From assembly GCF_004362745.1 (NCBI RefSeq), contig NZ_SNXY01000007.1:620001-684000 (forward strand): 64,000 nucleotides of DNA, given 5' to 3'. The notes under the pieces are model-generated. The model did not search any database. It saw nothing but the letters and a program-made list of their open reading frames with translations, and had not been told where the DNA came from. Shown here one piece after another: positions 26,994 to 42,674 of the stretch. The translations under genes and the position numbers were made by a program. Position 1 is the first letter of the stretch; each line of letters starts with the position of its first letter. This DNA comes from Oharaeibacter diazotrophicus. Its GTDB lineage: Bacteria > Pseudomonadota > Alphaproteobacteria > Rhizobiales > Pleomorphomonadaceae.

Positions 26994-27006
26994 TCCGAGA
27001 CGGTCG

Positions 27007-27036
27007 CGGCCGCGCCCTCCCGCAGGGGCGCGGCCG
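27007..27036 (+). terminator. mxaF-mxaJ intercistronic hairpin
   Basis: Perfect 11-bp GC stem (27007-27017 with 27026-27036), 8-base loop, ten bases after the mxaF stop, without T-tract. Likely partial terminator or 3' stabiliser. The rest of the 162-base gap is unremarkable. Confidence 0.6.
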
Positions 27037-27155
27037 TGCCACCGGCCCCGCCGCGGCCATGCGCGCGTCGCGGCGGGACCGTTCCGAACGATCCGACAGA
27101 CGACGGGCGACCGCGGCGATCCGCCGGACCGAGCGCCCAGTGAGGGAACCCCGCC

Positions 27156-27992
27156 ATGACCACCATCGCCCGTTCGCGGTCGGTGCTCGCCGCCGCCACC
27201 CTGCTCGCGGCCGCCGCCGGAGCCGCCGAGGCCGCCGAACCGCTCCGCATCTGCGCCGCCACCAAGGAGGCCCCGTATTCGTCGGCCGACGGTTCCGGCT
27301 TCGAGAACCGCATCGCCGTCAAGCTCGCCGAGGCCATGGGCCGCGAGCCGCAATTCGTCTACGCCGACAAGTTCGCGATCTACATCGTCCGCGACTATCT
27401 CGAGACCGGCGAGTGCGACGTCGTGCTCGGCGTCGACTCCGGCGACGAGCGGCTGGCGACCTCCAAGCCGATCTACCGCACCGGCTACGTCATGGTCAGC
27501 CGCCAGGACGAGAACTTCGACACCGCCGACTGGGAGGCGATCCGCGACACCCGCTTCAGCCGTTTCGCCATCCGCTTCTACAGCCCGGCCGAGACGATCC
27601 TGAAGTACACGGGCAAGTGGGAGGACAACGCCGCCTACCTCTACGGCCTGATCGACTTCAAGTCGAACCGCAACACCTACAATCAGGTCGACGCCTCCCG
27701 CCTCGTCTCCGAGGTCGCCGGCGGCGAGGCGGATCTCGCCATCGCCTTCGCGCCCGACGTCGCCCGCTACGTCAAGTCGGCGTCGGTGCCGATGCGCATG
27801 ACGATGATCGACCGGCCGATCACCCGCACCGACGGCAAGACCATCCCGCTCCAGTACGACCAGGCGATCGGCGTCCGCAAGGACGACACGGCCCTGCTCG
27901 CCGAGATCGAGGCGGCGCTCCCGAAGATCCGCGCCGACATCGACCAGATCCTCGCCGAAGAGGGCATTCCCCTGCTGCCGCCGAGCAGCTGA
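27156..27992 (+). CDS. mxaJ: MxaJ, periplasmic methanol oxidation accessory protein
   Basis: 278-residue exported protein with a periplasmic solute-binding-protein fold (family 3-like). The signal peptide is about residues 1-26. The mature protein begins [20 protein letters not shown] and has [20 protein letters not shown] and the [21 protein letters not shown] lobe motif. MxaJ is thought to help mature or stabilise methanol dehydrogenase rather than import a solute. The canonical position between mxaF and mxaG secures the assignment. Confidence 0.93.
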
Positions 27993-28030
27993 TCCCGTCC
28001 ATCGATCCCCCGCCGAAAGAGAAGGTACCG

Positions 28031-28567
28031 ATGCAGTCCTGGTTCCTGAGAACCTGCGTCCTCGCCGTCGCCACCACCACGCTGGCCGTGGGCGCGGTCG
28101 CCCAGATCCGGCTCTTCAACACCGTCACGGGCGAGCCGCTCGACATGTCCATGGCCATGGAGGAGGGCCGCGACACGCCGGCCGTCAAGTCCTTCATGGA
28201 AACCGGCGTCAACGCCTACAACGAGAACCCCGAGGCGCTCGGCAAGGGCGAGGAGATCTTCCTCACCGCCTGCTCCGGCTGTCACGGCCATCTCGGCGAA
28301 GGCAAGATCGGCCCCGGCCTCAACGACGACTACTGGACCTATCCCGGCAACGCGACCGACGAGGGCCTGTTCCGGACGATCTACGGCGGGGCCGAGGGGC
28401 AGATGGGGCCGCAATACGGCAACCTGACGCTCGACGAGATGCTGCACGTGATGGCCTGGGTCCGCCACATCTACACCGGCGACCCGGCGACGGCGACGTG
28501 GTTCACGCCCGAGCAGCGCGCCGCCTTCAAGCCCTTCCCGAAGACCCATCCGGATCCGAACGGCTGA
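28031..28567 (+). CDS. mxaG: Cytochrome cL (MxaG), electron acceptor of methanol dehydrogenase
   Basis: 178-residue periplasmic class I c-type cytochrome. The signal peptide ends VGAVAQ (about residue 25). Heme attachment is CSGCH (Cys81, Cys84, His85) and the likely axial Met lies in [10 protein letters not shown] (Met125). The cL-specific N-terminal part ([14 protein letters not shown]) and C-terminal extension ending KTHPDPNG are present. It passes methanol electrons on to a smaller cytochrome c and the oxidase chain. A 153-base GC-rich gap with several possible small hairpins separates it from mxaI. Confidence 0.95.
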
Positions 28568-28720
28568 GCCGTGCGGACCGACCGTCGCGGCGGCGAAGGG
28601 GGCCGGCGCGACCCGCGGCGTCACCGGGTGGGGCGCCGCGACACCAGAGGGGGGCGCCGCCGCCGGGGAACGAGGGGCGGGGCGTCACCGGACCAAGACG
28701 TCGAACAGGAGGAAACGGAC

Positions 28721-29014
28721 ATGAAACTCATCGCCACTCTCGCCGCCGCCACGGTCGTCGCGCTCGCCGGCATCGGTTCGGCCGCCGCCTACGACGGCAC
28801 CAACTGCAAGGCGCCGGGCAACTGCTGGGAGCCGAAGCCGGGCTACCCGGACAAGGTCGAGGGCTCCAAGTACGACCCGCAGCACGACCCGATGGAGCTC
28901 AACAAGCAGTCGGAGTCGATCAAGGCCATGGAGGAGCGCAACGCGCTCCGCGTCGCCAACTTCAAGAAGACCGGCAAGTTCGTCTACAACGTGAAGGACA
29001 TTCCGGCCCAGTGA
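28721..29014 (+). CDS. mxaI: Methanol dehydrogenase small subunit MxaI
   Basis: 97-residue exported subunit that wraps the MxaF surface in the alpha2beta2 enzyme. Signal peptide to about residue 22 (SAAA). The mature chain YDGTNCKAPGNCWEPKPGYP has the two-cysteine disulfide loop, then the long Lys/Glu-rich helix (QSESIKAMEERNALRVANFK). AGGAGGAAA precedes the ATG. Its presence confirms an MxaFI rather than XoxF system. An inverted repeat follows 19 bases after the stop. Confidence 0.96.
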   Translation: MKLIATLAAATVVALAGIGSAAAYDGTNCKAPGNCWEPKPGYPDKVEGSKYDPQHDPMELNKQSESIKAMEERNALRVANFKKTGKFVYNVKDIPAQ

Positions 29015-29032
29015 TCCCCTCGCGCCGGGCGG

Positions 29033-29061
29033 TGCGGACGGGAGCCCTCACCCCGTCCGCA
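29033..29061 (+). terminator. Hairpin after mxaI
   Basis: Perfect 10-bp stem TGCGGACGGG / CCCGTCCGCA with 9-base loop between mxaI and mxaR, no T-tract. It probably sets the boundary between the abundant mxaFJGI message and the low-abundance accessory genes. Confidence 0.5.
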
Positions 29062-29224
29062 AGCGCAGACCGTCCGACGTCGAGCCGGGGGCGGGCGTCC
29101 GATCCGGCGCGATGGACCGGTTTTCGTTCTCCCTGGACCACACGAGCCCTCGACCGCGCCTTCGCGGTCGGGCGCCCGTCCCCGGTCCCACGCAGAGAGA
29201 CGGTGTTCCTTGGACGAGCGTGAG

Positions 29225-30250
29225 ATGTCGATCGACCTCGAGGACTGGCGCCGCCGCGCCGCCGCGTTCGAAGCCGCCGTGGCGACGGCGGTCGTCGGCC
29301 AGGACCGCGCCGTGCGGCTGACCACCATCGCCGTGTTCTGCCGCGGCCACGTGCTGCTCGAGGGCGACGTCGGCGTCGGCAAGACCACGCTGCTGCGCGC
29401 GGTCGCCCGTGCGCTCGGCGGGCCCTACGAGCGCATCGAGGGGACGGTCGACCTGATGCCGAACGACGTCGTCTACGCCGCCCACGTCGGCGAGGACGGC
29501 CGTCCGCGCGTCGAGCCCGGACCGATTCTCGCCCACGGCGAGGATCTCTGCGTCTTCTTCTTCAACGAGATCAACCGGGCGCGGCCGCAGGTCCACGCCC
29601 TCCTGCTGCGCGCCATGGCCGAGCGCAGCATCGGCGCCTTCCGCCGCGAGTGGCACTTCCCGCATCTCCAGGTCTTCGCCGACCGCAACCGGGTCGAGCG
29701 CGAGGAGACCTTCGAACTGCCCGCCGCGGCGCGCGACCGCTTCTTCGTCGAGATCGCGGTGGAGGCCCCGGCCGATCCGGCGATCCGCCGCCGCCTCGTG
29801 TTCGACACCCGTTTCCACGACACCGACGCCCTGATCGCGGCGGTGCCCGAGGCGGTGCTGCCGTTCCGCGAACTCGGCGCGGTCGCCGCCGCGATCCAAC
29901 GGGCCGTGCACGCCTCCCCGGCGATCGAACGCTACGTCTTCGACCTCTGGGAAGCGCTGCGCGATCCGGCTGCGGCCGGCATCGAGATCCCCGGCGTGCC
30001 GGTCGAGCGGCTGGTCCAGGGCGGCGCGAGCCCGCGTGGCGTCTCGGCGCTGGTGCGCGCCGCCCGCGCCCACGCCTGGCTGGAGGGCCGCCGCTTCGTC
30101 GACCCGGACGACGTCGGCGCGGTGTTCCGTGCGGTGATGGGCCACCGCATCTTCCTGGCGCCGGCCTACGAAGCCCGCCGCGATCGGCTGGTGCCCGCCC
30201 TGGTCGACGCCGCCTTCGCGCGGGTCGCCGTGCCGGCGGAGGCGGCATGA
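29225..30250 (+). CDS. mxaR: MxaR, MoxR-type AAA+ ATPase
   Basis: 341-residue cytosolic ATPase of the MoxR clade, thought to help insert calcium and activate methanol dehydrogenase together with the vWA proteins MxaC, MxaL and MxaS. Walker A GDVGVGKTT, Walker B CVFFFNEINRA, sensor region FADRNRVEREETFELPAAARDRF and a C-terminal lid domain are intact. ATG 29225 is used; a TTG at 29210 (adding MDERE) is better placed behind GAGAG and may be the true start. It overlaps mxaS by four bases. Confidence 0.9.
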   Translation: MSIDLEDWRRRAAAFEAAVATAVVGQDRAVRLTTIAVFCRGHVLLEGDVGVGKTTLLRAVARALGGPYERIEGTVDLMPNDVVYAAHVGEDGRPRVEPGPILAHGEDLCVFFFNEINRARPQVHALLLRAMAERSIGAFRREWHFPHLQVFADRNRVEREETFELPAAARDRFFVEIAVEAPADPAIRRRLVFDTRFHDTDALIAAVPEAVLPFRELGAVAAAIQRAVHASPAIERYVFDLWEALRDPAAAGIEIPGVPVERLVQGGASPRGVSALVRAARAHAWLEGRRFVDPDDVGAVFRAVMGHRIFLAPAYEARRDRLVPALVDAAFARVAVPAEAA

Positions 30251-31113
30251 CCGATCCGCTGGACGACTTCGCCGATCTCGCCATCGCCGCCCGCGGCCGG
30301 CTGTTCTCGGTCCGGCCGGGACGGCACGGCGCGCGCACCGTCGGCGTCGGCGGCGCCTTCGCCGGGCTGTCGCCGCTGATGGACCATCCCGATCCGCGCC
30401 GGATCGACGTCCGCGCCTCGATCCGCGATCCGTTCGGCACCATCTGGGTCCGCCGCCAGCGCCAGGAGGTGGCGGCGCGGATCGTCGTGCTGCTCGACAC
30501 CTCCGGCTCGATGGCCACCGTCGGCCGCTCCGACCGCGGCGCGCTCGCCCGCGTCCTCGTCGCCGGTCTCGCCCGCGCCGTCGAGCGCGGCTCGGACGGC
30601 TTCGGCCTCCTCACCGGCGCCGACATCGGACCCGACGCGGCGCTGTGGCCGCCGCGCCGCCGCCGCGGCCTCGCCGCCGAGGTCGGCGCGCTGGTCGACC
30701 GCATCGCCTTCGCCGGCTCCGGCGTCGGTCGGCTCGAGGCGGCCGCCGACCTCCTGCCCGCCGGGCGCTGCGTCGTGCTCCTGGTCTCGGACTTCTCGCA
30801 GCCGCTCTCGGTGGTCGCGGCCCTGCTCGACCGCCTCTCCGCCCACGACGTCCGCCCGGTCGTGCTGCGCGACAGCGCGGTCGAGGCCCCGGACGGCCGC
30901 TTCGGCGTCGTCGAACTCGCCGATCTCGAGGGCGGCGGCCGCCGCCTCGTGCTGATGCGGTCGTCGCTCGCCCGCGCCCAGGCCGCCGCCGCCGCCGAGC
31001 GCCGGCGCCGGCTCGCGATGCTGTTCGCCGACCACGACCTTTCGCCGGTGGAGATCGTCGACCAGATCGACGTCGCCGCGCTGGTCGACGCCTTCGCGGC
31101 AGGAGGGGCGTGA
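30247..31113 (+). CDS. mxaS: MxaS, DUF58-type accessory protein
   Basis: 288-residue protein acting with MxaR. The N-terminal part holds a DUF58-like region (PLMDHPDPRRIDVRASIRDP) and the middle a von Willebrand A core with MIDAS LLDTSGSMA and LVSDFSQPLS. The C-terminal helix region (EIVDQIDVAALVDAF) is typical. No signal peptide or membrane segment, so cytosolic. It starts at ATG 30247, overlapping the mxaR stop. Equivalent genes are required for active methanol dehydrogenase in Methylorubrum and Paracoccus. Confidence 0.88.
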   Translation: MTDPLDDFADLAIAARGRLFSVRPGRHGARTVGVGGAFAGLSPLMDHPDPRRIDVRASIRDPFGTIWVRRQRQEVAARIVVLLDTSGSMATVGRSDRGALARVLVAGLARAVERGSDGFGLLTGADIGPDAALWPPRRRRGLAAEVGALVDRIAFAGSGVGRLEAAADLLPAGRCVVLLVSDFSQPLSVVAALLDRLSAHDVRPVVLRDSAVEAPDGRFGVVELADLEGGGRRLVLMRSSLARAQAAAAAERRRRLAMLFADHDLSPVEIVDQIDVAALVDAFAAGGA

Positions 31114-31116
31114 GCG

Positions 31117-32013
31117 ATGCGCGCGCCGGCCGCCGTGCTCCTCGCCGTCCTCGCCGCCGCGCCCGCCGCGGCGGCGCCCGTCGTCGTGCTCGCACCGCCG
31201 CGCGACCACGGCTGGTGGATCGGCGACGTGCTGCGCGTCTCGGCCGAGATCCTCGTCGACGACGGCGCCACGATCGATCCGGCCTCGCTGCCGAAGCCGC
31301 GCCCGGTGACCTATTGGCTCGACCTGCGCTCGGTCGCGCTCGTCGACCTCGGCGCATCGGCCGGGCAGCGGCGGCTGCGCCTCGACCTCGTCTACCAGAC
31401 CTTCTACGCCCCGCTCGAGCCGAAGCGGCTCGTCGTGCCGGCCGTCGACCTCGCCATGGTCGGTCCGGGCGGGCGCGAGGCGGCGACGGTGCCGTCCTGG
31501 AGCTTCGTCTCCGCGCCGCTGCGCGAGATCATGGCGCCGAGCGCGCCCGGCGAGGTCCGCACCGCCGCGCCGGTGGCGGTCGTCGACACCCGGCCGGACC
31601 AGGTCCGCGCCGCCGCCGCCGCCGCGGTCGGCATCGTCGCCATGCTCGGCTTCGGCTGGCACCGCGGCCTCGGGCCGTTCGCCCGGCGCGACCGCCCGTT
31701 CGGCCGCGCCGCCCGCGCCGTCCGCCGCGCCCTGGTCCGGCCCGGCGGCGCCGAGGGTCGGCGCGCGGCGCTGATCGCGCTGCACCGTGCGTTCGACGCC
31801 GCGCTCGGCCGGCGCATGCTGCCGCGCGACGTCGACGCGCTCTTGGCGCGCCGGCCGGAGTTCGCGCCGCTGCGCGTCGGCATCGACGGTTTCCTCGACG
31901 CCTCGCGCGCCGCGTTCTTCGCCGCGCCCGGCGCGGTGCCGTCCGAGCCGGGCGCGGAGGCGATCGGCCGGCTCGCCGACGACCTCGCCGCCGTCGAACG
32001 GAGGCGGCCGTGA
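31117..32013 (+). CDS. mxaA: MxaA, calcium-insertion accessory protein
   Basis: 298-residue membrane-anchored periplasmic protein. Signal peptide to about residue 20. The mature domain begins VVVLAPPRDHGWWIGDVLRV, an immunoglobulin-like beta domain with VTYWLDLRSVALVD. One membrane segment at about residues 166-186 is followed by a cytoplasmic helical tail. MxaA is one of the set (A, K, L) linked genetically to calcium insertion into methanol dehydrogenase. It ends overlapping mxaC by GTGA. Confidence 0.88.
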   Translation: MRAPAAVLLAVLAAAPAAAAPVVVLAPPRDHGWWIGDVLRVSAEILVDDGATIDPASLPKPRPVTYWLDLRSVALVDLGASAGQRRLRLDLVYQTFYAPLEPKRLVVPAVDLAMVGPGGREAATVPSWSFVSAPLREIMAPSAPGEVRTAAPVAVVDTRPDQVRAAAAAAVGIVAMLGFGWHRGLGPFARRDRPFGRAARAVRRALVRPGGAEGRRAALIALHRAFDAALGRRMLPRDVDALLARRPEFAPLRVGIDGFLDASRAAFFAAPGAVPSEPGAEAIGRLADDLAAVERRRP

Positions 32014-33041
32014 TCGCCTTCGACCGCCCGCTCGTCGCGCTCCTGCTGCTGCCGCTGGTGCTGCTGCCGCTGCTGGTTCGCCCGGCCGCGCCGTCGGGCC
32101 ATCCTGCGATCCGGCTGGTGCCGGCCGACCGCGCCTCGCGGGCGACCGCGGCGGCGCTCCGCGCCCTCGGCGTCGTCGCGATCGCCGCCCTGGCGCTGGC
32201 GCTCGGCGGCCCGCATCTCGGCGGCGGCACGGTCGAACGCCGCGGCGTCGGCGCCAACGTGGTGCTGCTGATCGACCGCTCGTCGAGCATGGACAACAGC
32301 TTCGCCGACCGTCTGCCGAGCGGCGACGAGGAATCCAAGTCCGCCGCCGCCCGCCGCCTCGTGCGCGACTTCGTCGACCGCCGCCCGCGCGACCGCATCG
32401 GCGTCGCCGCCTTCTCGACCACGCCGATGATGGTGGTGCCGATCACCGACCGGCTCGACGCCGTCCGCGGCGCCCTCGACGCCATCGACCTGCCGGGCCT
32501 CGCCTACACCGACGTCGGCCGTGGCCTGATCCTCGCCCTCGAGATGTTCGGCGACTCCACCGCCGCGGAATCGCGGGCGCTGGTGCTGATCTCCGACGGT
32601 GCCGGCGTCGTCGGCCGCGAGGTCCAGGACGCGCTGCGCGCCGCCGTGAAGCGCACGCCGGTCAACCTCTACTGGCTGTTCATCCGCTCCAAGGGCTCCT
32701 ACGGCCTCTTCGGCGTGCCCGAGAACCGGTCCGACGACACCCCGCGCGCCCGCCCGGAGCGCCATCTCCACATCCTGCTGTCCTCGCTCGGCATTCCCTA
32801 TCGCGCGCTCGAGGCGCAGTCGCCCGAGGCGATCGGCGAGGCGATCGCCGAGATCGACCGGCTCGAACGGCGCCCGATCACCTATGCCGAGCGGACGCCG
32901 CGCACCGACCTTGCGCCGTGGCTCTACGGCCTCGCGGCGCTGGCCCTGGCGCTGCTCGGCGCCGCGGTCGCGTTCGAGCGCGCCCTGGTTCCGGCCGGCA
33001 CGGTGCCGCTGCCACCGTTCGGGCGGGGAGGGGCGCGATGA
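32010..33041 (+). CDS. mxaC: MxaC, vWA-domain membrane accessory protein
   Basis: 343-residue protein with two N-terminal membrane segments (about 8-24 and 50-68), a periplasmic or cytosolic von Willebrand A domain with MIDAS LLIDRSSSMDNS and the ISDGAG motif, and a C-terminal membrane segment (about 308-327). This is the BatA/BatB-like topology of MoxR-associated vWA proteins. GTG start at 32010 overlaps the mxaA stop; its own stop overlaps mxaK by ATGA. Likely works with MxaR, MxaS and MxaL. Confidence 0.9.
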   Translation: MIAFDRPLVALLLLPLVLLPLLVRPAAPSGHPAIRLVPADRASRATAAALRALGVVAIAALALALGGPHLGGGTVERRGVGANVVLLIDRSSSMDNSFADRLPSGDEESKSAAARRLVRDFVDRRPRDRIGVAAFSTTPMMVVPITDRLDAVRGALDAIDLPGLAYTDVGRGLILALEMFGDSTAAESRALVLISDGAGVVGREVQDALRAAVKRTPVNLYWLFIRSKGSYGLFGVPENRSDDTPRARPERHLHILLSSLGIPYRALEAQSPEAIGEAIAEIDRLERRPITYAERTPRTDLAPWLYGLAALALALLGAAVAFERALVPAGTVPLPPFGRGGAR

Positions 33042-33640
33042 CGCGACGCCCGCGCACCCTGCACCTGCGCGATCGCCTCGCCGGCGGGGCGATCGGCGCC
33101 GGCCTCGTCGCGATCGCCGTGCTCGCCTTCGCCGTCGCGGCGTGGTTCGTCGCCGAGGTCGTCGCCGACAAGGCCGCCAACGACGCCATCCGCGGGCTCG
33201 CCGCCGGCCGCGACGTCGCGGTCGACCCGGCCACCGCCCGGCCGGAGCCGCTGCTCGCCCGGGCGCAGTTCCTGCTCTCGCGCGGGATGGTCGAGGAGGG
33301 CGAGGGGCTGCGCGGGCCGATCGAGGCGACCGGCCGGACCGACCTCGTCGCCGCCTATCTGCAGGATCTCGGCGCGGCCCGGCTCGTCCGCGCCTTCGAC
33401 GCCGTCGACCGCCAGGACGTCGACGCCGCCGTCGCCGAGGTTCGCGTCGCCAAGGAGGTGCTGCGCGCCGCCCTCGCGCTCGCGCCCGACGACTTCGACC
33501 TCAAGGTCGACGTCGACCTCGCCATGCGCCTCGTCCGCGACTTTCCCGAACCGGGCGCGGAGGAGGGCGAGGAGGAGCCCGGCGAGCGGCCGAAGTCGCT
33601 GTGGACGGAACTGCCCGGCATCCCGGAGGGGCTGCCGTGA
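33038..33640 (+). CDS. mxaK: MxaK, accessory protein
   Basis: 200-residue protein anchored by one N-terminal membrane segment (about 17-40) with a helical periplasmic domain that looks TPR-like: FLLSRGMVEEGEGLRGPIE and AVAEVRVAKEVLRAALALAP. The tail is acidic (EPGAEEGEEEPGE). MxaK is linked with MxaA and MxaL to calcium insertion. It is coupled to both neighbours by four-base overlaps (ATGA, GTGA). Assigned mainly by order and architecture, since MxaK sequences diverge widely. Confidence 0.85.
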   Translation: MTRRPRTLHLRDRLAGGAIGAGLVAIAVLAFAVAAWFVAEVVADKAANDAIRGLAAGRDVAVDPATARPEPLLARAQFLLSRGMVEEGEGLRGPIEATGRTDLVAAYLQDLGAARLVRAFDAVDRQDVDAAVAEVRVAKEVLRAALALAPDDFDLKVDVDLAMRLVRDFPEPGAEEGEEEPGERPKSLWTELPGIPEGLP

Positions 33641-34689
33641 GACGCCCGCCGCTCCGCCTCGTCCTGTTCGCCGTCGCCGCCGTGCTCGCCGCGGTCGCCG
33701 CCGCCGGCCCGACCGAACGCCGGGTCGTCGACACCGTCGACGTCATGCTGGCGGTCGACGTCACCGGCAGCATGAACGCGCGCGACTACGACGACGCCGG
33801 CGTGCCCGAGAGCCGCCTCGCGCACCTGCGCCGCCTGCTGCCGGCCTTCGTCGCCGGGCTGACCTGCGGCTCGCGGGTCGGGCTGTCGATCTTCACCGAG
33901 CGGCGCAGTTTCGTGCTGTTCGAGCCGATCGAGGTCTGCGCCACCTATCCGGTGATCGCCGCCGCCATCGCCAATCTCGACTGGCGCATGGCCTGGGAAG
34001 GCGACAGCCGGGTCGCCGACGGGCTCCACCACGCCCTCGGCCTCGCCGCCGCCCGCGACTACGACCTCGTCTTCCTCTCCGACGGCCAGGAGGCGCCGCC
34101 GCTGCCCTGGTCCGGCGGGCCGCCCTTCGAGGGCGCCAAGGGTACGGTTCGCGGTCTCGTCGTCGGCGTCGGCGGCACGGTGCCGGTGCCGATCCCGAAG
34201 TTCGACGACCGCGGCCGCGAGGCCGGCTTCTACACCATGGAAGACATACCGCAGGAATCCCGCGTCGGGCCGCCGCCGCCGGGTGCCGAGAACCGGCCCG
34301 GCTGGCATCCGCGCAACAACCCCTTCGGTGAGATGCCCGCCGGCACCGAGCACTTGGCGGTCCTGCGCGAGGACCATCTCGTCCGGCTCGCCGACGAGAC
34401 CGGCCTCGCCTACGCCCGTCTCGGCACGCCCGCCGAACTGGTCGAGGCCGTCTCCGCCGCGGCCCGGCCCCATCCCGTCGAGACCGTCGTCGACCGTGCC
34501 CCGCTCGCCGGGGCGGCGGCGCTCGTGCTCGCCGGCCTCGCCGTCGCCCGGCTGGCGTTCGCCGGCGTCGCCGCGGCGTTGCGGCCCACGGCCGCCGCCT
34601 TGCGCGGGCCGTGGCGCCCGCCCGCCACCCGTTCCCCCACCGTGCGGCCGTCGGCCGCCGTTTCCGCACCATCAGAGGTGTCGTCTTGA
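33637..34689 (+). CDS. mxaL: MxaL, vWA-domain accessory protein
   Basis: 350-residue membrane-linked protein. An N-terminal hydrophobic segment (about 7-23) precedes a von Willebrand A domain with a MIDAS variant LAVDVTGSMNARDYD and FLSDGQEAPP; a second segment is at about 290-312. Family-specific stretches such as AGFYTMEDIPQESRVGPP and GWHPRNNPFGEMPAGTEHL are present. GTG start overlaps the mxaK stop. Its stop overlaps the mxaD start as TTGA. Confidence 0.9.
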   Translation: MRRPPLRLVLFAVAAVLAAVAAAGPTERRVVDTVDVMLAVDVTGSMNARDYDDAGVPESRLAHLRRLLPAFVAGLTCGSRVGLSIFTERRSFVLFEPIEVCATYPVIAAAIANLDWRMAWEGDSRVADGLHHALGLAAARDYDLVFLSDGQEAPPLPWSGGPPFEGAKGTVRGLVVGVGGTVPVPIPKFDDRGREAGFYTMEDIPQESRVGPPPPGAENRPGWHPRNNPFGEMPAGTEHLAVLREDHLVRLADETGLAYARLGTPAELVEAVSAAARPHPVETVVDRAPLAGAAALVLAGLAVARLAFAGVAAALRPTAAALRGPWRPPATRSPTVRPSAAVSAPSEVSS

Positions 34690-35219
34690 AGAAGTCGTTC
34701 GTCGTCGCTGCCATCCTCGCCGCCGTCGCGGCGGTTCCCTCCGCCCGGGCCCACGGGCCGACGCCCCAGAAGGTCGACGAGGCGATCGACATCGCCGCGC
34801 CGTGCGAGCTGGTGTGGTCGACGCTCCGCGACTTCGGCTCGATCGGCAAATGGCACCCCGGCCTGAAGGCCGTCGAGGCGCACGGCGCCTCCGAACGCGG
34901 CTCGACGCGCACGCTGACGCTGCCGAACGGCGAAGAGGTCGTCGAGAAGCTCGACGAGGTCAACGGCGACATGCAGTCGATGTCCTACCGGCTCTCCAAG
35001 GAGAACCTGAAGGCGCTGCCGGTGTCGTTCTACACCGCCAAGATGGTGGTGAGCCGGCCCGAGGCCGGTCCGTCCTGCCACGTCGAATGGGAGGGCCGCT
35101 TCTATCGCGGCGACACCACCAACGAGCCGCCGCCGGAGCTGAGCGACGAGGCCGCGGTCGCCGCCATGACCGAGTTCTTCCAGGTCGGCCTCGCCGGCCT
35201 GAAGAAGGCGATGGAGTGA
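34686..35219 (+). CDS. mxaD: MxaD, periplasmic SRPBCC-fold protein
   Basis: 177-residue exported protein with an SRPBCC/polyketide-cyclase fold; in Methylorubrum MxaD aids interaction of methanol dehydrogenase with cytochrome cL. The best start is TTG 34686, overlapping the mxaL stop as TTGA and preceded by AGAGG at 7 bases. It gives a clean signal peptide (KKSFVVAAILAAVAAVPSARA). Mature motifs: IAAPCELVWSTLRDFGSIGKWHPG and TNEPPPELSDEAAVAAMTEFF. No ATG fits a full-length product better. Confidence 0.88.
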   Translation: MKKSFVVAAILAAVAAVPSARAHGPTPQKVDEAIDIAAPCELVWSTLRDFGSIGKWHPGLKAVEAHGASERGSTRTLTLPNGEEVVEKLDEVNGDMQSMSYRLSKENLKALPVSFYTAKMVVSRPEAGPSCHVEWEGRFYRGDTTNEPPPELSDEAAVAAMTEFFQVGLAGLKKAME

Positions 35220-35221
35220 CC

Positions 35222-36169
35222 ATGCGCGCGCCCGCCGCCGTCCTCCTCGCCCTGACGCTGACGTTTCCCGCCGTCGCCGCGCCGCGGCCGGCGGCCTTCG
35301 TCGTCGTCAGTCAGGCGGCCGGTGTCGTCACCGGCCGCGACGGGGAAGGCGCCGAGACCGCACGGCTGGCGCTGGACAAGGCGCCGGCCGCGGTGGTGGT
35401 GGACGCCGCGCGGCGGCGCGCCTACGTCAGCGAGCCCGAGGTCGGCGCCGTCGCGGTCGTCGACCTCGACGGTTTCGCGCGCGCCGGCACCCTCGCGGTC
35501 GGCGGCCAGCCGTTCGGGCTCGCGGTCCGGCCCGCGGGGCGCCTGCTCGTCACCGACTGGAGCGCCGACACGCTGACCGAGGTCGATCCGGCCGGCGGCG
35601 CGGCGCGCACCGTCGCGGTCGGCCAGGCGCCGTCGGCGGTGGTGGTCGGTCCCGACGACCGCTTCGCCTACACGGTCGACCGCGAGGCCGACCAGGTCTC
35701 GGTGGTCGATCTCTCCGACTTCTCGGTCGTCGCCACCGTCGACGTCGGCCGCGCGCCCTTCGCGGCGGCGCTGGCGCCGGGCGGCCGCCGGCTCTACGTC
35801 GCCAACGTCCAGTCCTCCGACCTCTCGGTGATCGACCTCGCCTTCCGCCGCGAGATCGCCCGCATCCCGATCGGCGGCATGCCCTACGGCGTCGCCATCA
35901 GCCCAGACGGCGGCCGGATCGCCGTCACCGACCAGGAGGGCGGCCGGCTCGTGCTGATCGACGCCCGCTCGCTGGCGCCGGCCGGGGCGGCCACCGTCGG
36001 CGACTACGCCGAGGGCGTGGTCGCGCTGCCGGCGGTCGGCGCCTTCGCCGTCGCCAACTGGTTCTCCGACACCGTCTCGCTGGTCGGCTTCGACGGCCGC
36101 TCGGTGAGCCACGTCCCCGTGCCCAAGGGCCCCCGCATGCTGGCCGCATTGCCCGCGGTCGAGGAGTAG
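35222..36169 (+). CDS. YVTN-type beta-propeller protein, PQQ-system associated
   Basis: 315-residue exported protein (signal peptide to about 19, AVAA) built of roughly seven 40-residue YVTN/NHL-like blades, e.g. AYVSEPEVGAVAVVDLDG, LYVANVQSSDLSVIDLAF and IAVTDQEGGRLVLIDA. It resembles the PQQ-dependent-catabolism-associated beta-propeller family found beside quinoprotein alcohol dehydrogenases and ABC exporters. It starts 2 bases after mxaD. The position corresponds to mxaE of Methylorubrum clusters, but I cannot confirm homology, so no symbol is given. Confidence 0.75.
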   Translation: MRAPAAVLLALTLTFPAVAAPRPAAFVVVSQAAGVVTGRDGEGAETARLALDKAPAAVVVDAARRRAYVSEPEVGAVAVVDLDGFARAGTLAVGGQPFGLAVRPAGRLLVTDWSADTLTEVDPAGGAARTVAVGQAPSAVVVGPDDRFAYTVDREADQVSVVDLSDFSVVATVDVGRAPFAAALAPGGRRLYVANVQSSDLSVIDLAFRREIARIPIGGMPYGVAISPDGGRIAVTDQEGGRLVLIDARSLAPAGAATVGDYAEGVVALPAVGAFAVANWFSDTVSLVGFDGRSVSHVPVPKGPRMLAALPAVEE

Positions 36170-36176: not shown

Positions 36177-36632
36177 ATGTCGCGTGTGTTTCCCCTGTCG
36201 CTCCGCCTCGCCGTGGTGCTCGCCCTCGCCGCGGCGCTCGCGCCGGTCGCCGTCGGCGCCGAGACGGTGGTCGAGGCGCGCCAGCGCCTGATGGTGTCGA
36301 TGATCAAGGCCACCAAGGTGCCGCGCGCCATGGTCGCCGGCGAGACCGCCTTCGACGTCGGGGCCGTCGACGAGGCGGTCAAGCAGGTGCTGGAGGCGAC
36401 GGCGCTGATGCCGAAGCTGTTCCCGGACGGCTCGGCCGGCGGCCCGTCGGCCGCGCTGCCGGCGATCTTCCAGAACCGCGCCGACTTCGAGGGCCGCCTG
36501 CTCGATCTCGAGAAGGCCTCGGTCCAGCTCGCCTTCGCCGCCCGCCAGGGCAAGGACGAGATGGCCTACGCCTTCCACGAATACGAGGCGGTCTGCGAGG
36601 GCTGCCACGCCAAGTACCGCCGACCCGACTGA
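36177..36632 (+). CDS. Cytochrome c'-like (class II c-type) protein
   Basis: 151-residue exported protein. Signal peptide to about residue 28 (AVGA). The helical mature chain ends with a single heme motif CEGCH (Cys140, Cys143, His144) just before the C-terminus, the arrangement of class II cytochromes c'. ATG 36177 is used; GTG 36174 is equally placed behind GAGGAG. It could be an electron carrier or a NO/CO-binding cytochrome c'. It follows the propeller gene by 7 bases; the slot corresponds to mxaH of other clusters only by position. Confidence 0.75.
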   Translation: MSRVFPLSLRLAVVLALAAALAPVAVGAETVVEARQRLMVSMIKATKVPRAMVAGETAFDVGAVDEAVKQVLEATALMPKLFPDGSAGGPSAALPAIFQNRADFEGRLLDLEKASVQLAFAARQGKDEMAYAFHEYEAVCEGCHAKYRRPD

Positions 36633-36674: not shown

Positions 36675-39600
36675 ATGGCCGACACGGAAGACGACACCAC
36701 CGAAGCCCGCCGTCCCGCGCCGCCGCGCCGTCGCGCCGCTGTGCCGACCGCCGCCGAGGCGGGCTCGCCCGCCCGTCGCGCGCGTCGCGAATCCGCGCCC
36801 GCCGAAGCCGTGCCCGCGGTCGAGCCGGTCCGAGCGCGCAGGCGCAAGGCGGCGACCGAACCCGCTCCCGTCCCGGCCGATCCGACCGTGCCGCCCGCCG
36901 CCGAGGCCGATCCGTCGAGCTCCGCGGCCGTCCCCGCCGAAGCCGGCGCCGCGTCCGCGGCGACCACCCCCCGGCCGCGGCGCCGGACGGCCGCCGCCGC
37001 GATCACCGCGGACACGGCGACCGCCGTCCCGGATCGTCCCGCCGCCGCACCGCGTCCGCGCGCGAAGCGGGCCACCGCGCCGGCCGCTGCCGATGCGCCG
37101 GCCGAAGCCTCGGCGACCGCCGCCCGGGTCGACCGCGCCGCCGGCGACGCATCGCCCGGGCCGCTGGCCGCGGCCGCTGCGTCCTCCGGATCGCCCGCCA
37201 CCGCTTCCGTCGGCGCCGCGTCCCGCTCCGATCGCGTCGCGGCCCTCGCCGCGAGCCTCGCCGACGCCACGGGCGCCCTGCGCCGGACCGCCCGGCCGGC
37301 CGGCGTCGCGGCCGCCCGTCTCCTTCGCCGATCCGCAGCCGCGACCGCCCGTCTCGCCGGCCGGGCCGCGGTCGCCGGCGCGGCCGGTGTCCGATCCGCC
37401 GCCGCGGCCGTCGCCGGCCGAACCGCCCCGCCGCGCACCGGCGACGGCCGCCCCGCCGCCGTCGGCTCCGGACTGTGGACCCGCCTCGGCTTCGGTGCCG
37501 GCGCCGGGCTGCTGGTCGCCTTCCTGGTGGTCATGGTCTGGCGCGAACAGACCGCGCCGCCGCCGAGCGCCCCGCCGGCGGTCGAACCGCCATCGGCCGG
37601 CGCGGGCGTCGCCCTGGCGATCGGCGAGCGCGGGCAGATCGGCGGGCGTCTCGACGTCTCGCTCGCCGCACTCGCCGCGGACGGTTCCACCGCCACCATC
37701 GTTCCGGCCGGCGGCGATCCCCTGACGCTGCGGCTCGGCACCTCCGTCGAGGTGCCGTTCGGCAGCCGGGTCTGCGCCGTCGTCCTCACCGGGGTCTCGG
37801 ACGGTCGCGCCGTCGTCTCCGGCAACTGCGTCGGCACCGTGCCGCCGGCGCCGACCGAGATTTCCGCGCCGGTCGAGCGGCTCGTCCGCAGCGGCGACCG
37901 TGCCGTCTTCGCCGGCGGCCGGCTCGAAGTCGCGGTGTCGATGGTGTCGCCGGCCGGCGGCACCCTGCGCGCCGGTCTCGCCGGCGGCCCGGTGGAGACG
38001 CTGGAACAGGGCGTGCCGGCGGTGGTCCACGTCGGCGGCGATTCCTGCTCGGTCGCCTTCCTCGGCACCGTCGGCGATGCCGCCCGGCTGTCGGCCGCCT
38101 GTTCGGGCGAGACCGGGCGCCGGCTCGTCGCCGAAGCCGAGGTCGAGGCGACGTTCGCGCCGCACCGGCGCACCGCCGTGCCGACCGACCGCACAGCCAC
38201 CTTCCTCGGCGGACTGCTCGACGTCTACGTCGGCCCGTCCGCCCCGCGCGGCGACGCCGTCCGGCTCTCGGTCGACGGCGGCGTGATGAAGGCGGTTCCC
38301 GTCGGCGGCGTCGAGGTCGTCGACGTCGCCGGCACGCTCTGCGCCGTCGCGGTCCTCGCCGTCCGCCCCGACGGTGCCGACATCGGCACCGCCTGCTCCG
38401 GCCGCCTCGCCGGCCCCGCGTCGCTGTCGGGCCGCGACGGCGCCGCCGCGGCCGTCAGGGCGCTGGTCGAGCCCGGCGCGCGCACCGTCCTGCTCGACGA
38501 GCGCGTCCGCGTCGTGCTCTCGATGATCTCACCGGACGGCGAGGCGGTGCGCTGGTCGATCAACGAGGCCGGCCTCGTCACCACGGCGATCGGCGGCACC
38601 GCCGAATTCCGCGTCGGCGACGGCCGCTGCGGCCTGACGGCGCTGCGCGCCGAGGCGGGCGGCGTCCGCGTCCGCGCGGTCTGCGACGCCGGCGCCATGG
38701 CCGCCACCGTGGCGCGCGCCGCCGGCGAGGAGATCGCCGAGATCCGTCCCGGCGCGGCGGCGCGCCTCCTCGGCGGCAAGGTCCGCGTCGCCCTGTCGAT
38801 GATCGCCCCGGACGGCGAGGCCGTGCGCGTCGCCGTCAATGGCGGCGACCTCGCCACCGTCGAGCGGGCGGCGCCGTCGTCCTTCGCCTTCGGCAACGGC
38901 GCCTGCACGGTCGAATACGTCGGCACCGCCGCCTCCGGCGCCGCGCGGATCCGCGCCGCCTGCGACGGCGCCGCGCTCGCCTCGGACGTGCTGGTGCCCG
39001 GCGCAACCGAGCGCGTCGCGCTCGCGCCCGGCCGCGACGCCCGCCTGCTCGGCGGCCGGCTCGCGCTCCGGCTCTCGATGGTGACGCCGGACGGCGAGGC
39101 GATCCGCATCGCCGCCAACGGCGGCGACCTCGTCACCGCCGAGCGCGACCGGCCGCTGCGCTTCGCCAGCGGCGGCGGCGCCTGCGAGCTGGTGTTCCGC
39201 GGCCGCGACGGCGACAGGGCGACGGTCACCGCCGCCTGCGACGATGCCGCTCTCGCCGGTCCCGCCTTCGTGCCGGTGCGCACCGAGCGCGTCGACCTCG
39301 TCGTCGCCCGCCCGGTGACGGCGCAGGCGGGGCGGTTGCCGCTCGCCCTCAACATGGTCGCGCCCGACCGCCGCGCCCTGCGCATCGCCGTCGCCGAGGC
39401 CGGCCTCGGCACGCTGGAACGCGGCCGGCCGTTGACCGTGCCGGTCGGCCGCGGTGCCTGCCAGGTCGCGTTCGTCGGTGCGAGCGGCAGCGGCGCCACC
39501 GTCGAGACCGCCTGCGACGCCGGCGCCTTCGAGCGCGCGCCCGTGCCGGCCGACGCCGAGCGCCGCGTCGAGCTCGGCTACGGCCGGCCGGTGTCGCTGT

Positions 39601-40085
39601 TCGACGGCCGCACCGCGCTGGCGCTGTCGATGATCGCGCCGCGGCGCGACGCCGCCCGCATCGCGGTCGACGGCGTCCTACGCACGCTCGACGTCGGCGC
39701 CCCGTCGCCGCTCCGCGTCGAGGGCCGCGACTGCGCGCTGGTGCTGGAGCGGATCGGCGACGACGACCGCCTCGCACTCCGCGTCGGCTGCGGCACCGGC
39801 CTGCGCGGCGTCGTCGCCGCGGCGCCGATCCCGCCGGAGACGCGGCGCATCGCGCCCGGCGAGACCGCGGCCTTCTTCGCCGGCACGGTCGCGCTCCGCC
39901 TGGAGATGATCTCGCCGAGCCGCACGGGCCTGCGCGTCTCCATCGACGGCGCCAAGGTCGCGAGCCTCGACCGCGGCGAGCCGCGCGCCGTCGACGTCGG
40001 CGGCCGGCGCTGCCACCTCGACTACCGCGGCACCGACCGCAGCGGCCCGGCCGAGACCGCGATCGTGGAAGGACGCTGCGAATGA
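36675..40085 (+). CDS. Giant single-pass protein with nine tandem Cys-pair repeats, unknown
   Basis: 1136 residues, family not recognised. Residues 1-265 form an Ala/Pro/Arg-rich cytosolic tail, basic and helical near the membrane. A single membrane segment lies at about 266-291 (LGFGAGAGLLVAFLVVMVW). From about 316 to the end are nine tandem repeats of roughly 90 residues with the core LLGGKVRVALSMIAPDGEAV, then a Val/Ala strand and a pair of cysteines in a CX17-21C spacing. All 18 cysteines of the protein fall in these nine pairs, so periplasmic disulfides are likely. Its stop overlaps the ABC ATPase start (ATGA), tying it to the exporter. Function unknown. Confidence 0.85.
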   Translation: MADTEDDTTEARRPAPPRRRAAVPTAAEAGSPARRARRESAPAEAVPAVEPVRARRRKAATEPAPVPADPTVPPAAEADPSSSAAVPAEAGAASAATTPRPRRRTAAAAITADTATAVPDRPAAAPRPRAKRATAPAAADAPAEASATAARVDRAAGDASPGPLAAAAASSGSPATASVGAASRSDRVAALAASLADATGALRRTARPAGVAAARLLRRSAAATARLAGRAAVAGAAGVRSAAAAVAGRTAPPRTGDGRPAAVGSGLWTRLGFGAGAGLLVAFLVVMVWREQTAPPPSAPPAVEPPSAGAGVALAIGERGQIGGRLDVSLAALAADGSTATIVPAGGDPLTLRLGTSVEVPFGSRVCAVVLTGVSDGRAVVSGNCVGTVPPAPTEISAPVERLVRSGDRAVFAGGRLEVAVSMVSPAGGTLRAGLAGGPVETLEQGVPAVVHVGGDSCSVAFLGTVGDAARLSAACSGETGRRLVAEAEVEATFAPHRRTAVPTDRTATFLGGLLDVYVGPSAPRGDAVRLSVDGGVMKAVPVGGVEVVDVAGTLCAVAVLAVRPDGADIGTACSGRLAGPASLSGRDGAAAAVRALVEPGARTVLLDERVRVVLSMISPDGEAVRWSINEAGLVTTAIGGTAEFRVGDGRCGLTALRAEAGGVRVRAVCDAGAMAATVARAAGEEIAEIRPGAAARLLGGKVRVALSMIAPDGEAVRVAVNGGDLATVERAAPSSFAFGNGACTVEYVGTAASGAARIRAACDGAALASDVLVPGATERVALAPGRDARLLGGRLALRLSMVTPDGEAIRIAANGGDLVTAERDRPLRFASGGGACELVFRGRDGDRATVTAACDDAALAGPAFVPVRTERVDLVVARPVTAQAGRLPLALNMVAPDRRALRIAVAEAGLGTLERGRPLTVPVGRGACQVAFVGASGSGATVETACDAGAFERAPVPADAERRVELGYGRPVSLFDGRTALALSMIAPRRDAARIAVDGVLRTLDVGAPSPLRVEGRDCALVLERIGDDDRLALRVGCGTGLRGVVAAAPIPPETRRIAPGETAAFFAGTVALRLEMISPSRTGLRVSIDGAKVASLDRGEPRAVDVGGRRCHLDYRGTDRSGPAETAIVEGRCE

Positions 40086-41098
40086 CGCGGCGCGAGAGCG
40101 ACGACGAACCACAGGCGGCCGTGCCGGCCGCGCCGCCCGGCGAGGGCGCTGGTCCCACGGCCGCGACGCCGCCGCGGCCCGTGCGCTCCGGTCCGCCGCG
40201 CCGTCGGCAGGCCGTGGCGAAGGCCGCCGCGCGGCCGCCCGCCCGCGACCAGGCGGGAGAGGAGGTCGTCGCACCCGCCGCGTCTGCCGCGTCCGCACCG
40301 GCGGCTCCCGCCGCCGCACCGGTCGACGAAGCCCAGCCCGCCGCGCTCGCGGTCGCCGACCTCTCCTTCGCCTACCGCGGGCGCCCGGTGCTCGACCGTG
40401 TCGCCTTCCGGGTCGAGCGCGGCGTCTTCACCGCGCTGCTGGGGCCGAACGGCGCCGGCAAGACCACGCTGTTCTCGCTGGTGACACGCCTGTTCGACGC
40501 CCCCGGCGGCACCGTCCGCATCCTCGGCCGCGACGCCGGCCGCGACGGCGCCGATGCGCTGGCACCGCTCGGCGTCGTGTTCCAGAGCGAGACCCTCGAC
40601 GCCGACCTGACCGTGCGCCAGAACCTGCGCTATTTCGCGGCCCTGCACGGCCTCGGCACCCGCACCGCCGACGCCCGCATCCGCGAGGAGCTGGAGGCGA
40701 TCGGCGTCCTCGACCGGATCGACGACCGCGTCCGCGACCTCAACGGCGGCCACCGCCGCCGCGTCGAGATCGCCCGCGCGCTGCTGCACCGGCCGGAACT
40801 GCTGCTGCTCGACGAGGCTACCGTCGGCCTAGACGTGCCGACACGCCGCGCCATCGTCGCGCGCGTCCACCGGCTCGCCCGCGAACGCCACATCGGCGTG
40901 CTCTGGACCACTCACCTGATCGACGAGGTCGAGCCCGACGACGCCCTCGTGGTGCTGGTCGCCGGCCGGGTCGTCGCCACCGGCGACGTCGCCGGCGTGG
41001 TCGCCGCCACCGCCGCCGCCGATCTCTCGGCCGCCTACGACCGCCTCACCGCGCCCGGCCCGGGCCGGGATCCCGCCGCAGGGAGCAACGCCCCGTGA
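40082..41098 (+). CDS. ABC exporter ATPase, PQQ-alcohol-dehydrogenase-associated type, with N-terminal extension
   Basis: 338-residue ATPase. The core (about 87-310) has Walker A GPNGAGKTT, Q-loop VVFQSETLD, Walker B LLLLDEATVGLD and H-loop WTTHLIDEVE. The signature motif reads LNGGHRRRVEIA, Asn and His replacing Ser and Gln. Residues 1-85 are an Ala/Pro/Arg-rich extension absent from typical relatives and similar in composition to the tail of the preceding repeat protein. It resembles the ATPases of ABC systems linked to PQQ-dependent alcohol dehydrogenases. It overlaps both neighbours by four bases. Confidence 0.85.
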   Translation: MTRRESDDEPQAAVPAAPPGEGAGPTAATPPRPVRSGPPRRRQAVAKAAARPPARDQAGEEVVAPAASAASAPAAPAAAPVDEAQPAALAVADLSFAYRGRPVLDRVAFRVERGVFTALLGPNGAGKTTLFSLVTRLFDAPGGTVRILGRDAGRDGADALAPLGVVFQSETLDADLTVRQNLRYFAALHGLGTRTADARIREELEAIGVLDRIDDRVRDLNGGHRRRVEIARALLHRPELLLLDEATVGLDVPTRRAIVARVHRLARERHIGVLWTTHLIDEVEPDDALVVLVAGRVVATGDVAGVVAATAAADLSAAYDRLTAPGPGRDPAAGSNAP

Positions 41099-41901
41099 CA
41101 GTGCGCGCCTACGCCCTCGCCGCCAACGCCATCGTCCGCCGCGAGCTCCTGCGCTTCGTGCACCAGCGCGAGCGCTTCCTGTCCGCCCTGGTCCGGCCGC
41201 TGATCTGGCTGATCGCCTTCGGCACCGGCTTCCGCGAGATCGTCGGCCTGCCGCCGCAGCCGCCCTACGTCTCCTACGTCGGCTACGAGGTCTACATGGT
41301 GCCGGGGCTGGTCGCGATGATCCAGCTGTTCAACGGCATGCAGTCCTCGCTCTCGATGGTCCACGACCGCGAGATGGGCTCGATGCGGGTGCTGCTGACC
41401 GCGCCGCTGCCGCGGCCGTTCCTGCTGTTCGCCAAGCTGGTCGCCGGCACGGTGGTCTCGATCGCCCAGGTCTACGCCTTCCTCGCCGTCGCCGCCCTGC
41501 TCGGCATCCGCGCGCCGACCGCCGGCTACCTCGCCGTCCTGCCCGCCCTGGTGCTGACCGGCATGACCTTCGGCGCCTTCGGCATGCTGTTGTCGTCTAC
41601 GATCCGCCAGCTCGAGAACTTCGCCGGCGTGATGAACTTCGTCATCTTCCCGGCCTTCTTCTTCTCGTCGGCGCTCTATCCGCTCTGGAAGATCCGCGCC
41701 ACCTCCGAGGTGGTCTGGTGGATCTGCCTCGTCAACCCGTTCGGCCATGCGGTCGAACTGCTCCGCCACGCGCTCTGGGCCGACATGAACTGGACCATGA
41801 CCAGCCTCGTGCTCGTCACCGGCACGGTGGTCTTCGCCGCCGCGGTGCGCGGCTACGACCCGACGCGCGGCTTCCAGGCCCGCGTCCGGGCGGCGGGGTG
41901 A
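41095..41901 (+). CDS. ABC-2 type permease, PQQ-alcohol-dehydrogenase-associated type
   Basis: 268-residue membrane protein with about six segments, DrrB/PedC-like. Landmarks are FVHQRERFLSALVRPLIWLIAFGTGF at the start, the coupling helix VHDREMGSMRVLLTAPLPRP, and FPAFFFSSALYPLWKI with CLVNPFGHAVELLRHA near the end. GTG start at 41095 overlaps the ATPase stop. Together they form an exporter of unknown cargo; in PQQ systems such transporters are found with the beta-propeller protein also present here. Confidence 0.85.
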   Translation: MTVRAYALAANAIVRRELLRFVHQRERFLSALVRPLIWLIAFGTGFREIVGLPPQPPYVSYVGYEVYMVPGLVAMIQLFNGMQSSLSMVHDREMGSMRVLLTAPLPRPFLLFAKLVAGTVVSIAQVYAFLAVAALLGIRAPTAGYLAVLPALVLTGMTFGAFGMLLSSTIRQLENFAGVMNFVIFPAFFFSSALYPLWKIRATSEVVWWICLVNPFGHAVELLRHALWADMNWTMTSLVLVTGTVVFAAAVRGYDPTRGFQARVRAAG

Positions 41902-42674
41902 CGCCGATGGCCGCCGCCCGCCCCCTGCCGCGCGCCGCGACCGCGGTCCTCTCCGGCCTCGCCCTCGTGGCGGCCTGGACGCTGGCCTCGACCCTGACCG
42001 ACGCCCGCGCGCTGCCGCCGCCGTGGGCGGTCGCGGCGGCGATGGCGCGCGAGGCCGCCTCGGGCGACCTCCTCCGCCATCTCGTCGCGACGCTCACCCG
42101 CGTCGTCGCCGCCTTCGTGCTGGCGATGGCGGTCGGCAGCGCCGTCGGCTTCGCCATGGGTCGTTCGCGGGCGGTCGACCGCGCCCTCGACGTCTGGCTG
42201 GTCGTGCTCCTGAACCTGCCGGCGTTGGTGGTGATCATCCTCGCCTACGTCTGGTTCGGTCTGACCGAGGCCGCCGCCATCGGCGCGGTCGCGGTCAACA
42301 AGCTGCCGAACGTCATCGTCACCGTACGCGAGGGCGCGCGCGCGCTCGATCCCGCCCTCGACGAGATGGCGCGGGCGTTCCGACTGCCGCTCCGCCGGCG
42401 GCTCGCCGACGTGGTGCTGCCGCAGCTGCGGCCCTATCTGGCGGCGGCGGCACGCTCGGGCCTTTCGCTCGTCTGGAAGATCGTGCTGGTGGTGGAACTG
42501 CTCGGCCGGTCCAACGGCGTCGGCTTCCAGCTCTCGATGTTCTTCCAGCTCTTCGACGTCGCCTCGATCCTCGCCTATGCGCTGGCCTTCGTGCTGGTGA
42601 TGCTGACGATCGAGGTGACGGTGCTGCAACCGATCGAGCAGAGGGCGAACCGCTGGCGTGTCCACCTCCGTTGA
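41898..42674 (+). CDS. SsuC/TauC-type ABC importer permease
   Basis: 258-residue BPD-type permease of the nitrate/sulfonate/taurine family with about six membrane segments. The EAA loop is LDEMARAFRLPLRRRLADVVLP and the C-terminal part carries GLSLVWKIVLVVELLGRSNGVG. GTG 41898 overlaps the exporter permease stop (GTGA); ATG 41907 is an alternative. The ATPase gene starts 17 bases before its stop. No periplasmic binding protein is encoded nearby, so the substrate is open. Confidence 0.85.
   Translation: MTPMAAARPLPRAATAVLSGLALVAAWTLASTLTDARALPPPWAVAAAMAREAASGDLLRHLVATLTRVVAAFVLAMAVGSAVGFAMGRSRAVDRALDVWLVVLLNLPALVVIILAYVWFGLTEAAAIGAVAVNKLPNVIVTVREGARALDPALDEMARAFRLPLRRRLADVVLPQLRPYLAAAARSGLSLVWKIVLVVELLGRSNGVGFQLSMFFQLFDVASILAYALAFVLVMLTIEVTVLQPIEQRANRWRVHLR

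Follow-up and report, generated by a model that had tools for sequence, protein, structure and literature searches.

A two-cysteine domain of quinoprotein and lanthanide-uptake loci, present in nine copies in a membrane protein encoded behind the mxa cluster of Oharaeibacter diazotrophicus

The described systems closest to the gene studied here are the methanol dehydrogenase (mxa) cluster, the accessory proteins of which we take to be MxaJ, R, S, A, C, K, L, and D, the cytochromes of the MxaG/XoxG type, and the PedA1A2BC/Lut systems. To our knowledge, little has been established about the periplasmic arrangement of methanol dehydrogenase, its cytochrome, and the lanthanide supply. The gene lies at positions 36675 to 40085 of a 64,000-nucleotide stretch of the O. 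diazotrophicus contig NZ_SNXY01000007.1 (hereafter the window), between mxa genes and a pair of genes for an ATP-binding cassette (ABC) transporter, and encodes a membrane protein with nine tandem repeats. Profile comparisons indicate that the repeat is a real domain, which also occurs outside this protein. For the transporter side, three articles report that pedA1A2BC is required for efficient growth of Pseudomonas putida at low lanthanum (PMC6839425), that lutE and lutF mutants of Methylorubrum extorquens failed to grow on methanol with lanthanum before suppressors appeared (PMC7391723), and that PedA1A2BC is termed a lanthanide transporter in a 2026 article on the ped cluster (PMC12997753).

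Anatomy and predicted fold of the nine-repeat protein

The protein is made of an N-terminal tail, a membrane segment, and nine repeats (hereafter beads), with the following coordinates in the window:

36675..40085, + strand: gene of the nine-repeat membrane protein (open reading frame of 1136 amino acids; a nine-repeat, 18-cysteine orthologue is found in genome G002)
36675..37472, + strand: A/P/R-rich N-terminal tail, probably cytoplasmic, exact start uncertain (composition; weak codon-position signal; shorter in the G002 orthologue)
37485..37541, + strand: membrane segment, residues about 271-289 (hydropathy)
37611..37832, + strand: repeat 1 (repeat alignment, as for all the repeats below)
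37872..38105, + strand: repeat 2
38166..38399, + strand: repeat 3
38454..38687, + strand: repeat 4
38730..38966, + strand: repeat 5 (part of the modelled segment 38688-39011, predicted to form eight strands)
39009..39242, + strand: repeat 6
39285..39518, + strand: repeat 7
39558..39794, + strand: repeat 8
39837..40082, + strand: repeat 9

An original prediction, made from the DNA letters and their translations, had described a product of 1136 residues with one membrane segment and nine tandem repeats of about 90 residues, and the open reading frame, the hydropathy profile, and the repeat alignment all agree with it. The most hydrophobic segment spans residues ~271-289, and the next hydropathy peak (around residue 543) falls within repeat 3. 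The same prediction placed every cysteine in a CX17-21C pair, one per repeat, and this is what we find: the 18 cysteines form nine pairs, with spacings of 18, 18, 18, 18, 19, 18, 18, 19, and 22. Nine such pairs never arose when 18 residues were placed at random 200,000 times, and the protein has no CXXC motif. The two cysteines are also the only invariant columns over 21 aligned domains. The LSMIxPDGEAVR-like core, said to be common to the repeats, is clear mainly in repeats 4 to 6 and is eroded to a varying degree in the remaining ones; the acidic residues of its PDGEA part differ between repeats. The ectodomain as a whole has 93 acidic versus 91 basic residues.

The orthologue is encoded in a different genus of the same family (G002). 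It shares 46% of the aligned residues and keeps the nine repeats and all 18 cysteines. Inside the protein of the window, the repeats are 20-51% identical (mean 31%). Between the two orthologues, equal-numbered repeats are on average 46% identical versus 32% for the other pairs, and the best match carries the same number for seven of the nine repeats. Since equal-numbered repeats are the more alike, the nine beads predate the split of the two genera and have since remained distinct units, which agrees with the earlier view of the repeats as old duplications that have drifted.

The tail is of a different nature. Its ~266 residues are of low complexity (61% A, P, and R), with a net charge of +16 and no cysteine. 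The GC content at the three codon positions is 0.84/0.81/0.87 in the tail versus 0.79/0.60/0.95 in the rest of the frame, and because this signal is weak the start of the frame is less secure than the repeats. Whichever start is taken, the region before the membrane segment is shorter in the G002 orthologue, and the tail is thus not the conserved portion of the protein. An A/P/R-rich N-terminal extension of ~90 residues and similar composition is found in the product of the next gene downstream, a PedB-type ATPase (extension at 40082-40345).

We modelled repeat 5 from an alignment of 11 rows. The model (predicted local distance difference test, pLDDT, 87.2; predicted template modelling score, pTM, 0.76) has eight strands and a short helix. 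Its cysteines, residues 73 and 92, lie on the strands of the last hairpin (71-80 and 86-92), and in a simple hairpin register they would be opposite each other, judging from the strand positions rather than from the coordinates. Because the pair spans this hairpin, it is likely to form a cross-strand structural disulfide, more so than to act in a redox relay. The model of repeats 4 to 6 was built from three rows of non-overlapping three-repeat blocks; overlapping blocks fell out of register in MAFFT. It has a pTM of 0.40, a near-identical strand pattern repeated three times (8, 8, and 7 strands), and pLDDT values below 50 at the N-terminus and in both linkers. The structure prediction that had been suggested originally thus gives a confident single bead and separate units in the triple, which is consistent with beads on a string, joined by linkers.

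No family had been recognised from the letters, and none is found convincingly in Pfam, NCBIfam, PHROGs, or the PDB. The whole protein gives a best Pfam E-value of 0.17 and no NCBIfam match at 0.01. When 22 single domains are searched, the best matches are BiPBP_C in Pfam (E 0.002, in 2 of the 22, sub-threshold) and one at E 0.011 in NCBIfam, with none at 0.01 in PHROGs. Big_2 appears in one of the 22 (E 0.033, again sub-threshold). We regard BiPBP_C and Big_2 as sub-threshold leads toward an Ig-like or similar sandwich. Among PDB sequences, the best E-values are 1.2 (single sequence), 0.12 (two-orthologue profile), and 0.19 (domain profile). A description of such a domain was not found in the literature searched, the coverage of which lacks most subscription papers, and the domain is apparently unnamed.

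The domain at other loci

When the C-terminal 794 residues were compared with 40 related genomes, three matched: that of the window (G000), G002, and, weakly, G016 (E 4.5e-4). The last was dropped, as no repeat protein is among its listed open reading frames and the domain profile finds none there. A profile of the two nine-repeat orthologues gave one further match in the genome of the window (E 2.6e-7), on a cytochrome c. A 21-row domain profile, searched in 397 genomes of the order, matched G000, G002, Chthonobacter albigriseus (G005), G028, and G733, whereas in a class-wide sample of 385 genomes either profile matched the genome of the window alone; in the order and class searches at most 14 candidates per genome were scored, and misses are possible. 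We judged the G733 match (E 4.6e-4, 42 residues) spurious: its 393-residue frame is overlapped by one of 392 residues that, by eye, resembles an ordinary enzyme. In the genome of the window, the 122 scored candidates yielded 10 beads, nine plus one, all in the two loci described here. A scan of the genome contigs with the whole protein gave no relatives, and tblastn searches of plasmids with the ectodomain, the G028 protein, and the cytochrome bead gave no match.

The cytochrome carries one bead (residues ~54-131), N-terminal to a haem domain that resembles MxaG/XoxG; by eye, its N-terminus is signal-like. It is encoded in a second quinoprotein locus, after a response regulator, an alcohol dehydrogenase (ADH) dependent on pyrroloquinoline quinone (PQQ; TIGR03075), and a MoxJ-like binding protein with ankyrin repeats (TIGR03871), and before a TIGR03863 binding protein, a TIGR03866 propeller, a second TIGR03863 protein, and a sigma-54 regulator. 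The core order (ADH, MoxJ-ankyrin protein, bead-cytochrome, TIGR03863-like protein, propeller) is kept in C. albigriseus (locus L009) and in the metagenome-assembled genome (MAG) RBC091 (L010). These are the two, out of 31 fetched loci, in which the related cytochrome has a bead; it is absent from the other 29, some of which are short. Two other proteins of such loci have unusual extensions. The TIGR03871 MoxJ-type protein of the second locus (L008:5897-7690) has a long ankyrin-repeat tail, with homologues in L009 and L010, and a XoxG-like cytochrome of a Rhodanobacter MAG (L034:9572-10375) has, by eye, two apparent EF-hand loops N-terminally, where the Chthonobacter protein has its bead.

The third architecture is found in G028, a genome of another family, and is a coiled coil that carries a single bead at its end (L092, 5526-6284, minus strand). 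Its gene is convergent with a PedB/PedC pair at 3847-5438, and its product is matched at E 7.7e-14 by a profile built without the G028 sequence. Against a profile made only of repeats of the nine-bead proteins, the three cytochrome beads reach a probability of 96.6% (E 5.7e-10), and the G028 bead one of 98.0% (E 2.9e-13). Profiles free of the target thus match the domain, with both cysteines aligned, and the nine-bead, bead-cytochrome, and coiled-coil proteins share one domain family. The six bead loci are those of the nine-bead protein in G000 and G002, of the cytochrome in G000, L009, and L010, and of the coiled coil in G028. Each of these lies within or next to genes of the mxa, lanthanide-type PQQ-ADH, or PedB/PedC kind, in line with the link to quinoprotein systems that had been proposed for the window.

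The immediate neighbours of the nine-bead gene are as follows:

25104..35219, + strand: mxa cluster, in the order F, J, G, I, R, S, A, C, K, L, D (models identify MoxJ, as TIGR03870, and the methanol dehydrogenase beta subunit; the remaining letters presumably, from domains, gene order, and the common nomenclature)
35222..36169, + strand: YVTN-type beta-propeller gene (domain models; a similar gene is at other mxa loci)
36177..36632, + strand: cytochrome c' family gene (PF01322), just upstream of the repeat gene (also upstream of the G002 orthologue)
40082..41098, + strand: ABC ATPase gene, PedB type (TIGR03864 above the cut-off, even when scanned from 40388)
41101..41901, + strand: ABC permease gene, PedC type (TIGR03861 above the cut-off)

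The gene had been placed after mxaD, a propeller, and a cytochrome, and this is indeed its position: the cluster ends at 35219 and is followed by the YVTN propeller and the cytochrome c' gene. In G002, too, the nine-bead gene comes after a like propeller and a cytochrome c' gene that follow mxa genes. The proposed coupling to an ABC exporter stands as regards the coupling, since the stop of the repeat gene overlaps the start of the ATPase gene at 40082 (ATGA). It does not stand as regards the direction of transport: the matches to the PedB and PedC models, together with the Ped/Lut articles, indicate that the genes at 40082-41901 are of the PedBC/LutEF lanthanide-uptake (importer) type and not an exporter. 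The genome has a second PedC-type permease (C7:474838-475590), with no bead nearby. The metal-site motif is DYA in the MxaF of the window and DYD in the ADH of the second quinoprotein locus, which we take to be the calcium and the lanthanide forms, respectively.

Other genes of the window were noted in passing. The PedB/PedC pair is followed by a further ABC pair of the importer type at 41907-43377, with a BPD_transp_1 permease and an ATPase that is nearest to sulfonate/taurine models and scores below their cut-offs. Ahead of the mxa region are a nitrous-oxide reductase cluster (11250-19947, by Pfam domains), presumably nosRZDFYLX-like, and a response regulator (20230-21030), the Pfam matches of which include two stretches of receiver domain but no output domain.

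Possible roles of the bead

The gene following the mxa cluster could be, as we read it, a membrane-tethered multivalent periplasmic adaptor, the beads of which bind a putative partner within the PQQ-dehydrogenase machinery; we consider this possible, somewhat short of an even chance, and a periplasmic scaffold remains our leading guess, as it was among the roles proposed originally. The protein would be a type II inner-membrane protein, with a predicted periplasmic part consisting of a string of nine one-disulfide beta domains. The domain would serve the PQQ (quinoprotein) alcohol-dehydrogenase systems of some Hyphomicrobiales as an accessory module. It is found as a single bead on a cytochrome expected to accept electrons from a lanthanide-type dehydrogenase, as a single bead on a coiled coil beside a PedB/PedC pair, and as nine beads on a membrane anchor following mxa genes. 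Each bead may serve to bind some part of this machinery; as a multivalent tether, the nine-bead protein could then hold several copies of that part at the membrane.

Several observations weigh against this reading. The six loci represent three architectures with homologous copies within each, and are not six independent observations. In the G002 stretch that was read, the nine-bead gene is followed by genes other than the ABC pair. The gene was found in 2 of the 48 genomes with mxaI (PF02315) in the sample of 397, and the domain profile, used unfiltered on 20 other mxa loci (L128-L147, a subset of the 48 genomes), gave 0 of 20 (best E 0.14). Among the 20 is the mxa locus of G001, from the same family, which has the propeller and the cytochrome c' gene, then unrelated genes and no nine-bead gene. 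Finally, a single genome, that of the window, was found to have both the cytochrome-borne and the nine-bead form.

These counts bear on the role in two ways. With 2 of 48 genomes, and with the gene missing after the mxa genes of G001, the nine-bead protein is not a core methanol-oxidation factor. A general maturation role, which had been among the suggestions, fits poorly with a gene not found in 46 of the 48 mxaI genomes, nor in any of the 20 other mxa loci. A survey of such loci had been proposed alongside, and absence elsewhere, with lack of expression, named as telling against the prediction; the gene was not found at most of them, which counts in part against it. A propeller like that of the window stands beside mxaL/mxaD in 17 of the 20 loci and a cytochrome c' gene in 3; one of the loci with the latter (L142) has no bead past the propeller, and instead, by eye, lipoprotein-like and two-component genes. 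The joint occurrence of the two forms in one genome alone implies that docking of one bead form to the other cannot be required, and thus favours a third partner shared by both. PedC occurs in G000, G002, G005, and G028, and a search for mxaI found none in G005 or in G028 (84% complete), so a lanthanide-side partner fits the distribution better than MxaFI. Unlike this distribution, the nine-bead form is seen after mxa genes only.

The nine-bead protein could, alternatively, be unconnected with alcohol oxidation, as a lineage-specific envelope or cell-surface protein that stands among mxa genes by chance. Its sporadic occurrence and the weak resemblance, below threshold, that single members bear to BiPBP_C and an Ig-like family are what one would expect of such a protein. 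The recurrence of the domain in three architectures, all of them found at genes for quinoproteins or lanthanide uptake, is not, nor is the confinement of the 10 beads of the genome to two quinoprotein loci, and we hold this explanation to be unlikely, if well worth keeping in mind. It is also unlikely that the protein is an accessory of the adjacent PedB/PedC-type transporter, for example a periplasmic docking arm for a binding protein or a metal chelate. The ATGA overlap would be natural in that case, as would the same kind of transporter pair adjoining the G028 gene and the cytochrome-borne bead directly upstream of a TIGR03863 binding protein and a TIGR03866 propeller. Against it, no bead was found near PedC at 60 of 60 other loci (best E 0.6), including the second PedC copy of the genome; the 60 are drawn from a larger set (of 288 genomes, 102 exceeded the cut-off), and 9 of them run into contig ends. 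Bead-positive PedC loci are thus 2 of 62 (the window and G028), with no constant association, and in G002 the nine-bead gene and PedC are on separate contigs.

Two further explanations make the beads active by themselves. Beads in the lanthanide-type ADH and PedBC-type context might buffer lanthanides or calcium in the periplasm. The varying acidic residues of the PDGEA core and the near-zero net charge of the ectodomain led us to reject this metal-binding repeat, which we consider improbable. A thiol-disulfide relay, in which the nine cysteine pairs would pass electrons or oxidise client proteins, was part of the original prediction, and it would account for the pairing of all cysteines and the retention of all 18 in two genera. 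The lack of CXXC speaks the other way, and so does the modelled pair, which has one cysteine on either strand of the last hairpin, as would be expected of a structural disulfide; we rejected the relay on the spacing and position of the cysteines and regard it as highly improbable.

If the adaptor reading is carried further, the undescribed domain might be a dedicated docking module for PQQ dehydrogenases, and the membrane-tethered nine-bead array might bring components of the dehydrogenase, the cytochrome, and lanthanide uptake together in a single periplasmic assembly, perhaps linking the calcium-type MxaF with the lanthanide-type enzyme of the two loci. We think this extended version doubtful. 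A modular domain on a cytochrome, a transporter-side protein, and a nine-bead membrane protein nevertheless offers a concrete experimental handle. Should the beads bind the dehydrogenase chain, they would amount to a natural scaffold for alcohol oxidation in the periplasm, a matter of interest to both methylotrophy and rare-earth biology.

Comparison with known systems

The most distant comparison is with the periplasmic beta domains of the cytochrome c maturation proteins CcsBA and CcmF. A Foldseek search of the PDB with the bead model found nothing at E≤0.001. A second structural comparison had CcsBA (7s9y; Z 8.3, 2.3 A, 80 aligned residues) and CcmF (6zmq; Z 7.0, 4.0 A, 92 aligned residues) in its first rows, at Z-scores near the tool's stated background for unrelated models; the third and fourth rows are unrelated proteins (Z 6.9 and 6.7). 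Families or folds missing from these lists are not thereby excluded. Given the cytochrome fusion the likeness of fold is suggestive, and we rejected homology with CcmF, since a profile of 20 CcmF proteins compared with the bead gave an hhalign probability of 0.4%.

The other known systems are neighbours of the gene in the genome. The nine-bead gene lies in the same cluster as the mxa accessory genes and is outside their conserved set, as the 20 other mxa loci indicate. The genes downstream of it match the PedB and PedC models of the PedA1A2BC/Lut system above the cut-offs; this system differs in having no bead protein at the 60 other PedC loci examined. The closest comparison is with the cytochromes of the MxaG/MoxG (cytochrome c(L)) and XoxG types. 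The nine-bead protein has no haem motif, unlike these cytochromes, most of which (29 of 31 related loci) have no bead. A stretch of the bead-cytochrome matches TIGR03872 at E 6.2e-9, far below the cut-off of that model, and in the genome of the window, in C. albigriseus, and in MAG RBC091 such a cytochrome bears the bead as an N-terminal fusion.

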